Origin: Anaerolineae bacterium | GTDB taxonomy: Bacteria; Chloroflexota; Anaerolineae; Anaerolineales; Villigracilaceae | DNA length: 6,219 bases | Assembly: GCA_003524705.1 (NCBI GenBank) | Contig: DQGV01000183.1 | Coordinates: forward strand, 1 to 6,219 | Reading direction: 5' to 3' | Shown here: positions 2,183-6,219 of the stretch, in pieces | How positions within the stretch are numbered: position 1 is the first letter of the stretch | Layout of the letters: every line of letters starts with the position of its first letter | Made by a program: the position numbers and the translations under genes | The notes under the pieces: generated by a model | Database searches by the model: none | Told to the model about the DNA's origin: nothing | Seen by the model: only the letters and a program-made list of their open reading frames with translations

Positions 2183-3211
2183 ATGAGCGTAAAACTAATG
2201 ACCCTCACCTATGAAGCGCATTTCCATGATATTGAATTTATCAAAGAAGTTACCAAGAAATCTACAGGCGAAAAATTGGAAAAGAAAATAAAGATAGTTG
2301 CTTCAACTGCAAAGTCGGTAACACTTGCTCTATCTGACCACGCCAACGATGAAGGCGAGGGAGCATATCCAAGTTTAACAACTTTAGAAGATAAAACTGA
2401 ATTATCTCGTATGACTGTGGTTGTAACACTGCAAGCCCTAAAATACGCTGGAATTATTCATTATGCAGGCACAAGTAAATTCAGCACAAGTAACTATACG
2501 GTTATTAAGAAAAAACTTATTGAAATGGCATCTTGGGAAAGAAAAAGCAGAAAAAAGGTAGTAAAGCCACTTTACCAAGAAGATTTAGGCAGTAAAGCCA
2601 CTTTACCACAGGAAGTAAAGCCGCTTTCAGAAAATAGTAAAGCCGCTTTACCCGAACCATCCTTTAACCATCAATTAACCAATGACGCTGAAGCGTCTCT
2701 TTCTTCACAACCCCAAAACACCAAGAAAGGCGATGGCGTTGACTTCATGCTTTACGGCATGAAACTCGCCGAAGAAAAAGCCGCAAGGGAAGGGCTACCT
2801 GTTGATGTGTCCAATGCCTTGGCGAACTTTCCCGCAGAATGTCAAAAACCTGCTCGCCTGATTTATCAAAAATTCAAACTGATTCCACCTGAAAAACCAA
2901 AGTCTGGCAAGGGCGGTGATTTTGCCCTGTGGATTTTAGGCATTAATCAAATCCTGAAAACTTGTGGAATGTATAAAGTTTCTTTAGACGTGGCTTTTGA
3001 TGAACTTTATAAAAACTGGAACAAAAGTCCGTTTAGCTACAAAAGCCCTCAATCTTTTGTGGGTCCAATGCAATCAGCATTGGCACATTTAGAAATTAAA
3101 AATGCTGATGAAAACATCGAGTATGCCTCCCAATCCTCTAATACAAATAGCGTTCCAAATCCTATGCCAAGACCATTAACGCTAAAACCATTACGAAAGA
3201 AGACAGCCTAA
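2183..3211 (+). CDS. Winged-helix replication initiator-like protein (lambda O / replisome-organizer type), carrying the putative origin
   Basis: The N-terminal domain contains a helix-turn-helix of the kind used by phage and plasmid replication proteins (HTH_36-like): residues 62-92, with YPSLTTLEDKTELSRM and TLQALKYAGII. A polar linker follows (about 113-185), rich in Lys, Pro, Ser and Gln. A C-terminal domain of about 185-310 includes FALWILGINQIL (247-258) and a predicted helical segment, and the end is a basic, Pro-rich tail. The linker DNA holds four palindromic repeats (2561-2651), as in lambda gene O, where origin iterons lie mid-gene. By analogy the N-terminal domain would bind these repeats and the C-terminal part would recruit the helicase encoded next door. 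ATG 2183 is 8 bases past the previous stop, with AGGAT 5 bases upstream. A plain transcription regulator is less likely given the context. No distinct helicase-loader gene is present in the window. Confidence 0.75.
   Translation: MSVKLMTLTYEAHFHDIEFIKEVTKKSTGEKLEKKIKIVASTAKSVTLALSDHANDEGEGAYPSLTTLEDKTELSRMTVVVTLQALKYAGIIHYAGTSKFSTSNYTVIKKKLIEMASWERKSRKKVVKPLYQEDLGSKATLPQEVKPLSENSKAALPEPSFNHQLTNDAEASLSSQPQNTKKGDGVDFMLYGMKLAEEKAAREGLPVDVSNALANFPAECQKPARLIYQKFKLIPPEKPKSGKGGDFALWILGINQILKTCGMYKVSLDVAFDELYKNWNKSPFSYKSPQSFVGPMQSALAHLEIKNADENIEYASQSSNTNSVPNPMPRPLTLKPLRKKTA
2561..2651. repeat. Four iteron-like palindromic repeats, putative replication origin
   Basis: Four copies of a 15-bp element lie at 2561-2575, 2592-2606, 2615-2629 and 2637-2651. 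Copies 1 and 2 read GTAAAGCCACTTTAC, copy 4 reads GTAAAGCCGCTTTAC (a perfect 7-1-7 palindrome) and copy 3 ends CTTTCA instead of CTTTAC. Start-to-start distances are 31, 23 and 22 bases, near three, two and two helical turns, so sites would face about the same side of DNA. Copies 1 and 3 are read in one codon register (VKPLY, VKPLS) and copies 2 and 4 in another (SKATLP, SKAALP). The DNA word is therefore conserved while the peptide is not, which argues for a protein-binding site rather than a protein repeat. Confidence 0.75.
2663..2697. other. AT-rich patch and inverted repeat beside the iterons (possible unwinding element)
   Basis: Directly after the last iteron, 2661-2683 is about 70% A+T and contains TTAACCA twice (2664-2670 and 2675-2681), 11 bases apart. 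It is followed by GACGCT-GA-AGCGTC (2684-2697), a perfect 6-bp inverted repeat. In lambda the iterons are likewise followed by an AT-rich stretch and an inverted repeat. The AT bias is modest for this window, so the unwinding role is inference. Confidence 0.4.
2744..2763. repeat. 7-bp inverted repeat downstream of the putative origin
   Basis: TTCATGC, a 6-base loop TTTACG, then GCATGAA form a perfect hairpin-capable repeat inside the initiator gene, about 90 bases past the last iteron. It may be a primase or replication-fork signal or a chance repeat; nothing further distinguishes these. Confidence 0.3.
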
Positions 3212-4576
3212 ATGACAGATTATTTCCCTCACGAGAAAGAAACCCCTGCATCACCTAGTGTTCCCCATAGTCGTGAAGCCGAAGAAGCTGTTGTCGGCGC
3301 AGTGCTAATCAATCCAGATGTTTATTACGATATTGCCGCTTTTCTCAAAGGCGATGATTTTTATATTCATCGCAACAAGTGGATGTGGGAAGCAATAGAA
3401 AAACTAAAAGAGAAACGCACTGACATAGATTTACTCACCGTATCAAACGAACTGGAGAAAAGCGGAAAACTTTCAGAGATTGGCGGCTCTGCCTACATCA
3501 CATCTTTGATTAATCAAGTACCAACATCACTGAATGCAGAATCATACGCTCGTATTGTCAAAGAATATTCCATTCGTAGAGGATTAATTAATTCCGCCAA
3601 TGAAATTGCCTCACTTGCCTACAAAGAACAAGATATTGAAAAAATAAAATCAGGTGCTTACGACTCTGTTGAAAAGGCAATTTCCTATTCCGTATCTTCC
3701 GAAATGAAACCTGCCAAACAATTGATGTCAGAATTTTATGACCACGTTGATGAATTAAGTAGATTAGAGGAAGACCAAGACCCAAGAATAAAAACTGGTT
3801 TTATAGATTTAGATAAGCTACTAACGATTAATAACGGTGACTTAATAACAGTGGCTGGTCGTCCAGGTATGGGTAAATCCGGGTTCGCTACCAGTGTTGC
3901 CTTATACAATGTAATTGAAAAAAACAAAAGCGTCGCTATTTTTTCTCTTGAAATGAGCGATCTTCAAAATTCAAGCCGCTTGATTTCTCAACTTGAAAAT
4001 TTAGATTTACAAAAAGTTCAAAAAGGAAAATTAGAACAACATGAGTGGCCACGGTTTACACATGCAGTTGAACAGATTGCAAACAGTAACCTTTTTATCA
4101 ACGAGAATCCAGACTTAACAGTTCCTCAAATTAGAGCTTTATCTAAAAAAATAAAATCGCGTCATGGCTTAGATTTAATAATCATAGATTACTTAGGGTT
4201 AATAGAAGGGGTTGGAGAAAACCGTACACAAGAAGTTTCATACATAAGTCGAAATCTAAAAAAGATGGCAAGGGCATTAAATGTCCCAGTTCTTTCATTG
4301 CACCAAATGAATCGTGAAATTGAAAAAAGGGGCGATGGGAAACCCCAACTTTCTGACCTAAGAGACTCTGGCAGTATTGAACAAGATAGCGATTCCGTTC
4401 TTTTTTTCTATGGAAAAGGTGAGGTTTCCGCAATTAATCATACACGTCCAGTCAAAGCGTCTTTAGCAAAACAAAGACAAGGTCCCGCAGATAAAACCAT
4501 TGACTTAATCATCCACGAGAAAACAACCAAGTTCGATAATGCCGCAACAGTTCACCAAAGGAGTAACCAAAGATAA
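3212..4576 (+). CDS. dnaB: Replicative DNA helicase, DnaB family
   Basis: The 454-residue product is full length for DnaB (E. coli 471). The N-terminal helicase domain starts at PHSREAEEAVVGAVL (18-32). The RecA-like ATPase domain runs from about 195 to 443 with Walker A GRPGMGKS (216-223), SLEM (245-248), Walker B LIIIDY (322-327), a sensor segment ending in Q365 M N R, LSDLRDSGSIEQDSD (380-394) and the arginine-finger segment KQRQGP (420-425), then KFDN (440-443). It unwinds DNA ahead of the fork as a hexamer. The region just after SLEM (DLQNSSRLISQLENLDLQKV) departs from host DnaB, which usually has a recognisable QL-R sequence there, and H364 replaces the usual Ser before the sensor Gln; this suggests a mobile-element copy rather than the host gene. 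The ATG abuts the previous stop, so translation is probably coupled. Whether it replaces or supplements host DnaB is unknown. Confidence 0.95.
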   Translation: MTDYFPHEKETPASPSVPHSREAEEAVVGAVLINPDVYYDIAAFLKGDDFYIHRNKWMWEAIEKLKEKRTDIDLLTVSNELEKSGKLSEIGGSAYITSLINQVPTSLNAESYARIVKEYSIRRGLINSANEIASLAYKEQDIEKIKSGAYDSVEKAISYSVSSEMKPAKQLMSEFYDHVDELSRLEEDQDPRIKTGFIDLDKLLTINNGDLITVAGRPGMGKSGFATSVALYNVIEKNKSVAIFSLEMSDLQNSSRLISQLENLDLQKVQKGKLEQHEWPRFTHAVEQIANSNLFINENPDLTVPQIRALSKKIKSRHGLDLIIIDYLGLIEGVGENRTQEVSYISRNLKKMARALNVPVLSLHQMNREIEKRGDGKPQLSDLRDSGSIEQDSDSVLFFYGKGEVSAINHTRPVKASLAKQRQGPADKTIDLIIHEKTTKFDNAATVHQRSNQR

Positions 4577-4578
4577 CT

Positions 4579-5589
4579 ATGGGCGACAAAACAAAAATTG
4601 AATGGACGAATTTCTTCGGTCAGAATTCAGGTGCAACATGGAATCCTATCGCCGCATTTCATAAAGGGAAACGTGGGTGGGCGTGCGTAAAAATTGACCC
4701 TGCCTGTAGGCATTGCTACGCACAACAGATAAACCAAACCCGCCCGTTCGGTATGGGTACCGGACTTCCCTACGATGTAGAGAGTATGTCAAAGGTTGAA
4801 CTTGATTTAGTAAATTTAGATCAACCAATTCGATGGGGAAAGCCACGAGGCATATTTGTAGCATCCATGACAGATTTATTTGGAAACTTCGTTCCCGAAG
4901 AATACCGCCGCGCTATCTTCGTAATCATGGGATTTGCTCAACAACATATCTTCATTACACTTACAAAACGAATTCCTGAAATGGTTACTTGGTATCTAGA
5001 CCAAAGCCATAAACCAGACTTTGAAATTCCACAAGAATATGTCACCCCTGCCATTCTTAAAGCATGGAAAAAAAGAAATGGCGCAATCGGCTTATTCCCT
5101 GATTCAAACATAATCGTCGGCATTTCAATTGGTAATCAAACCTCAGCAGACAAAGCCTTGCCTTATATGAAGTTGTTAAGACAAAACTATAAGAACATGA
5201 AAATTATGGTCTCAAATGAACCTGCTTTAGAAACCGTTGACTTCACAGGATGGGAAGAAATTATCTCTTGGCTCGTCACAGGCGGCGAAAGCGGTAGAGA
5301 CGCTCGCCCCATGCACCCACATACTGCCTATGCTTCACGTGATTGGGCTTTGAAAAATAACATTCCATTTTTCTTCAAGCAGTGGGGAGAGTACGTTCCT
5401 TGTTCTACTAAGCTTGTTCATGGAATTAAATATGATGGCGTTATTTTTGTAAAACCTGATGGGTCTTTGGGTACAGGTGATGATTGGTTTTACGGAAAAG
5501 AAAACACAATTCCCATGGATAAGGTCGGCAAGAAACAAGCCGGTCATTTATTAGACGGAATTGCCTATCAACAATTTCCGAAAGTGTAA
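4579..5589 (+). CDS. Phage Gp37/Gp68 (DUF5131) family protein
   Basis: The 336-residue protein carries the family's landmarks in order: KIEWTN (6-11), ATWNP (19-23), the cysteine cluster C36-x6-C43-x2-C46 followed by YA, SMTDLFGNFVP (96-106), FITLTKR (125-131), GISIGNQ (181-187), SNEP (212-215), TGGESGRDARPMHP (234-247), FFFKQWGEY (264-272) and VGKKQAGHLLDG (316-327). The family is common in phages and mobile elements. The cysteines suggest a radical-SAM-like iron-sulfur or metal site, but no activity is established to my knowledge. An insertion-like segment (about 141-172) and a Gly/Lys-rich lead-in before C36 differ from the shortest members I recall. It starts 3 bases after the dnaB stop; AAAGGAG at 4557-4563 is 15 bases upstream, rather far, so coupling to dnaB translation is likely. 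Identification is firm; function is not. Confidence 0.9.
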   Translation: MGDKTKIEWTNFFGQNSGATWNPIAAFHKGKRGWACVKIDPACRHCYAQQINQTRPFGMGTGLPYDVESMSKVELDLVNLDQPIRWGKPRGIFVASMTDLFGNFVPEEYRRAIFVIMGFAQQHIFITLTKRIPEMVTWYLDQSHKPDFEIPQEYVTPAILKAWKKRNGAIGLFPDSNIIVGISIGNQTSADKALPYMKLLRQNYKNMKIMVSNEPALETVDFTGWEEIISWLVTGGESGRDARPMHPHTAYASRDWALKNNIPFFFKQWGEYVPCSTKLVHGIKYDGVIFVKPDGSLGTGDDWFYGKENTIPMDKVGKKQAGHLLDGIAYQQFPKV

Positions 5590-5594
5590 AAGCC

Positions 5595-5837
5595 ATGAAA
5601 AAAAATAACAGTTACTACAATCTCGCTATGTGGAAGATAAAAAACTATCTTCGTAAAAGATGGAAGAATTTAATCAAAGCCTATTTACTCATGTGGTTAA
5701 TTTTACTTACCCTTATGGTAGGCTGGCATCAAGCATTTTTCAACAGCCCTATCGGAACAACAAAATATGCCATGATATTTGTTACCCCTGTTTTAATTTC
5801 CATTGGCATATTTAGACTTTATCAAGAATCTGAATAA
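5595..5837 (+). CDS. Small two-helix membrane protein, 80 aa
   Basis: The product has a strongly basic N-terminal part (KIKNYLRKRWKNLIK, 14-28), then two hydrophobic segments, about 29-48 and 57-74, joined by a short loop, and an acidic end (QESE). The positive-inside rule puts both ends in the cytoplasm. No signal peptide cleavage site or known motif is visible. It starts 6 bases after the DUF5131 stop codon with only a weak AAAAG purine run ahead. Its stop overlaps the next gene's start (TAATG), so it is probably co-translated with the sigma factor. It could be a membrane partner such as an anti-sigma, a holin-like protein or an unrelated small inner-membrane protein; the sequence does not decide. 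Unlike a typical anti-sigma it lacks a sizeable cytoplasmic domain. Confidence 0.7.
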   Translation: MKKNNSYYNLAMWKIKNYLRKRWKNLIKAYLLMWLILLTLMVGWHQAFFNSPIGTTKYAMIFVTPVLISIGIFRLYQESE

Positions 5838-6219
5838 TGGAACTACATCATAGTTTATTAACCGCCAAAGAAGAAAAAGAAATCATCGCACGCATACAAA
5901 GCGGTGATGAATCAGCGCAGGTCACTTTACTTACACATAACGAGCGCATGATTTACGGCATAGCAAAAATGTTCTTATATAATGCCGCGCTTGATGTAGA
6001 AATGGAAGACCTCATGCAAGAAGGTCGCATGGCACTTCTCAAAGCGGCTCAAAAATATTCTCCAGAAATTGCAAAGAAACATAAATCAGATAAGTTTTCT
6101 ACCTATGCCACCTGGGGCATCCGTCAAGCTATCAAACGGTATGCTTCACGTCATAAAAGTGGATTCTCACGTTCAGCAGAACTAGACGAAGCTTCATATC
6201 GTGTATTAAGAATTCAAAA
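5837..6219 (+). CDS. Sigma-70-family RNA polymerase sigma factor, N-terminal part (runs off right edge)
   Basis: An ATG at 5837 overlaps the previous stop and opens a frame through the window edge (127 codons visible). Residues 7-36 (LLTAKEEKEIIARIQSGD and onward) match region 1.2, and 38-48 resemble region 2.1. DLMQEGRMALLKAAQKY (58-74) matches region 2.2, the core-polymerase contact, and KFSTYATWGIRQAI (86-99) matches regions 2.3-2.4, which melt and read the -10. Two departures are visible: the second Trp of the usual TWWIRQ is Gly94, and about five extra residues (EIAKKHKSDK region, 77-86) separate 2.2 from 2.3. There is no long region 1.1, so it is an alternative or element-encoded factor, plausibly for later genes. 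Regions 3-4 lie outside the window. Confidence 0.9.
   Translation, partial: MELHHSLLTAKEEKEIIARIQSGDESAQVTLLTHNERMIYGIAKMFLYNAALDVEMEDLMQEGRMALLKAAQKYSPEIAKKHKSDKFSTYATWGIRQAIKRYASRHKSGFSRSAELDEASYRVLRIQ

Follow-up and report, generated by a model that had tools for sequence, protein, structure and literature searches.

The question raised by this locus is whether a phage gene for a replication initiator also holds, within its own coding sequence, the origin at which replication would begin. The stretch analyzed here, referred to as the window, is 6,219 nucleotides long and spans positions 1742-7960 in a virus record of 52,417 bases. The initial annotation drew attention to four repeats inside the gene at 2183-3211 and read them as a self-encoded origin of the lambda O kind. 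Our analysis suggests that positions 2561-2687 are probably a phage replication origin located inside its own initiator gene, in which iterons private to this phage are followed by a common array that would serve in opening or helicase loading. The features on which this reading is built are as follows.

2183..3211, + strand: initiator gene (342 amino acids) that holds the proposed origin; Pfam HTH_36 and PHROG matches.
2189..2530, + strand: winged-helix domain, approximately residues 3-116; AlphaFold2 model and generic winged-helix matches in the PDB.
2411..2413, + strand: codon for Met77, a recognition-helix residue whose identity agrees with arm base 3 (34 of 39 aligned rows).
2561..2575, + strand: iteron 1, perfect dyad, frame 0; repeat search.
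2592..2606, + strand: iteron 2, perfect dyad, frame 1; repeat search.
2615..2629, + strand: iteron 3, right arm broken (CTTTCA), frame 0; repeat search.
2637..2651, + strand: iteron 4, perfect dyad, frame 1; repeat search.
2655..2687, + strand: AACC array, proposed opening or helicase-loading element; units at 2655 (AACCATCCTTT), 2666 (AACCATCAATT) and 2677 (AACCAATGACG).
2735..3118, + strand: helical C-terminal domain, approximately residues 185-312; AlphaFold2 model.
3212..4576, + strand: gene for a DnaB-like replicative helicase, directly downstream of the initiator gene; Pfam DnaB_C (E 6.9e-78) and phrog_19 (E 7.5e-97).

The identification of the gene product as an initiator-like protein encoded next to dnaB was borne out. 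Residues 42-92 matched Pfam HTH_36 (E 1e-6; 28.9 bits against a cut-off of 25), the only other Pfam match being a subthreshold one to HTH_46, and the protein matched phrog_1032 (replication initiation; E 2.9e-14), phrog_391 (O-like; E 1.6e-9) and two further PHROGs labeled O-like, phrog_678 and phrog_345. The match to the DnaD-like class was weak (phrog_186; E 0.0012), and PF07261 is a precomputed assignment for some relatives of the protein (P0011, P0025, and P0028). An AlphaFold2 model with a mean pLDDT of 82 predicted a winged helix at about residues 3-116, a low-confidence and nearly unstructured segment at about 117-184, and a helical domain at about 185-312, so that the Pfam match and the model together give the layout of HTH_36-type phage initiators, namely, an HTH_36 domain, a linker, and a C-terminal domain. 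The comparison with lambda held for the presence of origin-like iterons in an initiator gene. The protein, despite its matches to the O-like PHROGs, had no significant similarity to lambda O (best BLASTP E value of 1.9, over 22 residues), and a P-type or DnaC-like loader gene was absent from the place directly after the initiator gene, which is occupied by dnaB. The neighborhood also includes a gene for a DUF5131 protein directly after dnaB (4579-5589; Pfam E 7.1e-52; phrog_2045) and a phage sigma-70-like factor at 5837-6219 of the window (whole gene, L054 7578-8381; Pfam Sigma70_r2 E 2.7e-12; phrog_351). Upstream of the initiator lies a gene at 992-1873 (293 amino acids) that had no confident family match in Pfam or PHROG; its product ends in an acidic DDIPF, resembling the tails of single-strand binding proteins.

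The four GTAAAGCC(A/G)CTTTAC repeats start at 2561, 2592, 2615, and 2637, which confirmed the spacings of 31, 23, and 22 nt given initially. Iterons 1, 2, and 4 are perfect 6-3-6 dyads of the form GTAAAG-CCR-CTTTAC; iteron 3 ends in CTTTCA, and so the set consists of three perfect dyads and one broken one rather than four palindromes. The exact pattern GTAAAGNNNCTTTAC occurred only at the three perfect iterons across the 52,417-base record, and when up to three mismatches were allowed, the iteron word gave 9 matches in the window against a mean of 3.29 and a maximum of 8 in 200 shuffles. Three or more perfect 6-3-6 dyads arose in just 8 of 5,000 synonymous-codon permutations of the gene that kept the protein (mean, 0.26). 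Counted relative to the gene start, the iterons lie in frames 0, 1, 0, and 1, as had been noted, and they encode approximately residues 127-157, which places them in the predicted linker between the winged-helix and helical domains, the position originally described. A GC-skew profile of the first 20 kb, taken at 1-kb steps, gave no information. As judged from sequence, the self-encoded-origin reading of the iterons is well supported.

Whether the iteron word follows the recognition helix was examined in the 40 closest relatives returned by a protein search, besides the window's own entry. Neither a protein scan of viral contigs nor an alignment scan of genome contigs found close relatives at the DNA level, and these relatives were therefore analyzed as proteins only. 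For each linker, a back-translation scan sought the six-base arm, among all 4,096, that was most often encodable as a 6-3-6 dyad, with 20 shuffled linkers for comparison; applied to the window, it recovered GTAAAG. An arm of the form GTxAA(G/C) was best or tied for best (tied in 8) and above the shuffles in 22 of the 40 relatives, comprising GTAAAG in 12, GTCAAG in 6, GTGAAG in 2, and GTAAAC and GTCAAC in 1 each. The linker peptides of these 22 thus appear to fit the window dyad or a version of it with paired arm changes, the pairing of the half-site change being built into the construction of the test. A different arm exceeded the shuffles in two relatives (P0030 and P0036), and the shuffles were not exceeded in the remaining 16 of 40. 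In the GTCAAG class a perfect frame-1 copy would give a TGA stop, and the frame-1 peptides (SQATLP), read by eye, show leucine there.

Residue 77 agreed with the third base of the arm, as judged from peptides, in 34 of 39 aligned rows under marker rules that were drawn up after the data had been seen. Arm base A went with methionine (2 of 2), valine (10 of 11, with one tie), and proline (5 of 5), arm base G with asparagine (4 of 4) and histidine (2 of 2), and arm base C with glutamine (11 of 14, with two A and one tie). The exceptions were P0026 and P0032, which combine glutamine with A; P0019 and P0036 were ties, and P0038, which carries glycine at residue 77, yielded no arm-base call. Marker peptides were present in 38 of the 39 rows, the exception being the remote P0038, so none of these rows combined a near-identical HTH domain with a repeat-free linker. 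On a tree built without the helix columns, the link between helix residue and iteron base was not significant. The closest neighbors of the window (M, A) were rows of the N/H, G type; P0011 (M, A) clustered, at moderate support, with P0009 and P0014 (H or N, G). Asparagine or histidine against G gave one informative pair on well-supported branches, which was concordant, and four pairs on all branches; glutamine against C gave two pairs, of which an average of 0.9 agreed and 1.1 showed no difference. The covariation of word and HTH that had been suggested as a check is present in the peptide-derived counts and not significant on the tree, and the suggestion that residue 77 may set arm base 3 is a lead, not proof. 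The two reading frames, together with an iteron word that, from the peptides, seems to vary in relatives along with the recognition helix, agree with the original view that the repeats are kept as DNA and not as peptide. One relative, P0027, has the C-terminal domain of the window initiator joined to a different N-terminal domain and different linker repeats (RSPGEPERSPGE), as seen by eye in the protein; it is possible that a natural module exchange replaced the DNA-binding domain there along with its sites.

The region initially delimited (2561-2651) covered the iterons and missed the element at 2655-2687, which is the feature most widely common to other phages. Directly 3' of iteron 4, AACCA occurs at 2655, 2666, and 2677, with an 11-nt period and in frames 1, 0, and 2, and the 52,417-base record has no AACCA-N6-AACCA outside this array. 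Taken in the window alone, the array does not stand out, since an AACCA triple arose in 136 of 5,000 protein-preserving shuffles of the gene. By pairing stability it ranked 362 of 996, so that less stable parts exist elsewhere in the gene.

The array was assessed in initiators chosen by protein. Protein patterns from the HTH part gave 47 loci, to which three named Pseudomonas phages were added, and these 50 were cut by 5-mer overlap to 35 nonredundant initiators. AACC pairs at 11 nt were present in 12 of the 35, the highest count among all 4-mers at spacings of 7-30 nt not divisible by three, and this count was never reached in 500 codon-order shuffles (mean, 0.72; maximum, 5) or in 500 protein-preserving permutations (mean, 3.55; maximum, 9). 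Counts at spacings of 10, 12, and 13 nt were raised as well (8, 9, and 5 of 35), which makes the period roughly one helical turn and not strictly 11 nt; for spacings of 10-12 nt taken together, 24 of 35 initiators had pairs against a protein-preserving mean of 10.1 (maximum, 17; 200 tries). Pairs of AACCATC with at most one mismatch per word were found in 19 of 35 (mean, 5.2; maximum, 11). AACCATC was the most widespread 7-mer, occurring in 24 of the 35 open reading frames (ORFs), against 3 for its reverse complement and 0 to 3 for four scrambled words, and it was about 20-fold denser in the genes (35 copies in 26,880 bases) than in the flanks (14 in 220,434 bases). All but one of the 35 copies lay at residues 105-215, the other lying at 272, and all three frames were used. 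In 24 of 35 cases, the 44 nt from the first word belonged to the 10% of the gene with the weakest pairing, an outcome to which the word itself contributes.

Loci were also chosen by the motif instead of by protein. AACCATC-N4-AACCATC-N4-AACC was found in 108 IMG/VR stretches; the count was 5 when the units were spaced by 13 nt and 19 when the word was reversed. A sense ORF covered the motif in 79 of the 80 stretches examined, and removal of the one lacking it (L091), of six ORFs shorter than 100 amino acids (L087, L095, L101, L102, L107, and L133), and of two duplicates (L121 and L127) left 71 nonredundant ORFs. HTH_36 was matched by 48 of these and replication PHROGs by at least 63 (53 to phrog_270 and ten of 12 others inspected singly, the remaining two, L093 and L118, having no match). 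In 70 of 86 array loci, the 160 nt before the array contained a 7-10-nt word repeated at least three times, a count made with no shuffle control; these words were of many unrelated kinds, often about 22 nt apart, and were themselves array-like in L064, L067, and L069. A scan of GTDB genomes for the triple returned at least 115 stretches, of which 80 were examined. Their ORFs matched an initiator profile in 52 cases, a count to be read with the facts that the profile includes the linker and that the peptides of L202, L224, L262, L270, and L271 resemble tandem repeats by eye; the 28 stretches without a match were, by eye, in many cases short tandem repeats. In the genome set, one array-bearing initiator family recurs in prophage-like stretches of many Rhodobacteraceae (L199-L278).

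The array has limits. AACCATC was present in 9 of 13 JBD68-type genes, a set that overlaps the 35 initiators, in 8 of 58 DnaD-like genes, and in 0 of 1 nonredundant gene of the lambda O type (80 near-identical ORFs). Pairs of AACC at 11 nt occurred in 8 of 13 JBD68-type genes (synonymous mean, 1.64; maximum, 4) and 8 of 58 DnaD-like genes (synonymous mean, 3.76; maximum, 7). The DnaD-like set was gathered with six search peptides, two of which lie in the linker, and one of its eight array-bearing genes is the query itself, L112 (there L469), taken from the motif scan. The idea that the array is universal in phage origins was dropped on these counts. Among named phages, Tuc2009 and r1t have four AACC units (AACCA in Tuc2009) at 11 nt, and the array was missing from TP901-1 (rep), lambda (O), A2, 80alpha (organizer), and the Sfi21 and D3 stretches; the D3 stretch has no annotated replication gene and is therefore uninformative. 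The array is inverted in L101, L107, and L133, three genes encoding proteins with 37 to 41% identity to the Tuc2009 organizer. Separately, in the DnaD-like genes (L469-L548), ACAAGAA, AACAAGA, GATAAGA, and ATAAGAA each occurred in 52 to 55 of the 58 nonredundant genes, a frequency that may be built in because the peptide NKNDKNDK, which such DNA would encode, was among the six search patterns.

We infer binding, opening, loading, and origin activity from these patterns, and the following scheme is proposed. Dimers of the winged-helix domain would bind the iterons as two-fold sites, and this part would be private to the initiator and vary with its recognition helix. The array, in which AACCATC-type units follow one another on the coding strand at roughly one helical turn and which many HTH_36-type initiators with differing iterons have in common, would be the shared opening or helicase-loading element. 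Dimers on the iterons would bend the DNA and open the adjoining array. The initiator or a host factor may keep one strand of the array open, and the helicase loaded there would be the DnaB of the phage itself. In its general form, which we put forward tentatively and hold to be somewhat short of an even prospect, the proposal is that HTH_36-class phage initiators have a single origin element in common even though their iterons have diverged too far to be recognized, namely, AACCATCA units spaced by about one helical turn that lie on the coding strand immediately 3' of the iterons. This element would act as a general opening or helicase-loading signal read by a conserved face of the initiator or by a host factor. 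A fixed loading site would then stand next to an exchangeable specificity module made up of the iterons and the recognition helix.

The array may instead be a second set of double-stranded sites, phased by the helical turn and bound by a conserved part of the initiator or by a host protein, with the iterons still acting as the origin sites. This is rather unlikely in our judgment. In its favor, units are spaced 10-12 nt apart, about one turn, rather than strictly 11 nt; the inverted array in three Tuc2009-family genes is ill suited to a strand-specific element; Tuc2009 and r1t have AACC units and no dyad-type iteron was noticed there; and the Tuc2009 organizer is reported to bind direct repeats in its own gene (PMC8965321). 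It fits less well with the weak pairing of the array in 24 of 35 genes, with the constant sense orientation of the word in HTH_36-type genes (its reverse complement is present in 3 of 35 ORFs), or with the fact that the array sits where lambda has its AT-rich tract (lambda record and PMC7466680).

We consider it improbable that the repeats are operators through which the protein regulates its own gene or the operon and not an origin at all. Winged-helix proteins often act as repressors, and the sites do lie inside a transcribed gene, yet the initiator family matches and the dnaB neighbor speak for replication, the order of iterons and then array recurs across many initiators, and intragenic origins of the same layout are described in PMC7466680 and PMC8965321. 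Least probable of all, with very little chance of being correct, is that the repeats matter as protein, through selection for a repetitive linker peptide, or are functionless tandem DNA born of slippage. Disordered linkers tolerate repeats, in keeping with the low-confidence linker of the model, and the 28 of 80 GTDB stretches that lacked an initiator-profile match, many with tandem repeats by eye, lend this some color. Against it stand the two frames of the iterons and three of the array, the paired arm changes that the peptides of relatives suggest, and an array spacing count above every protein-preserving permutation. An origin with private iterons and a common array remains the reading that we prefer.

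Iterons inside an initiator gene are of a known kind, and the repeat word and apparent helix rule described here are a new case of it; the newer part is the shared AACCATC array, for which literature searches that covered few subscription journals found no report. Lambda and Stx phages have iterons and an AT-rich tract in the middle of the initiator gene (PMC7466680), and the lambda record annotates iterons 1-4 within gene O. The window resembles these origins in its four midgene iterons and in the putative opening tract adjoining them and differs from lambda in having another iteron, dnaB in place of a P-type loader gene as the next gene, and an AACC array that O lacks. For lactococcal phages, Tuc2009 among them, PMC8965321 reports origins made of direct repeats that lie within the gene of the replisome organizer and are bound by it. 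Of the organizers of Tuc2009, r1t, and TP901-1, the first two share the 11-nt AACC units with the window; all three belong to another initiator protein family, and TP901-1 rep is without the array. On the iteron plasmids RK2 and F, winged-helix Rep proteins (TrfA and RepE) simultaneously bind iterons and one strand of the repeats of the unwinding element (PMC4081077), which offers a model for the scheme proposed here. These differ from the window in being plasmid origins and in having 13-mers of other sequence. We know of no RK2 or F origin that sits inside its initiator gene. At oriC of Bacillus subtilis, the DnaD Recognition Element is a strand-specific single-strand motif with two TnnT that is bound by the C-terminal tail of DnaD (PMC10201434). 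The complement of the array unit, TGATGGT, reads TnnTnnT and so matches the TnnT spacing, a likeness to which we attach little weight because the motif is loose and the match may be due to chance.

If the proposal is true, the origins of many uncultured phages could be read from sequence as an HTH_36 initiator gene with repeats in its linker followed by an AACCATC array, and the apparent link between residue 77 and the arm base would be a testable rule of specificity. If the loading signal is indeed common to initiators of differing specificity, short synonymous changes would offer a direct test of what marks the entry site of the helicase in phage origins. In the Tuc2009 organizer family, the AACC array, in either orientation, is followed by a tract rich in TAG and TAAG (L192 1939-1982; L198 4213-4249; L101, L107, and L133), which we take to recall DnaA-trios.
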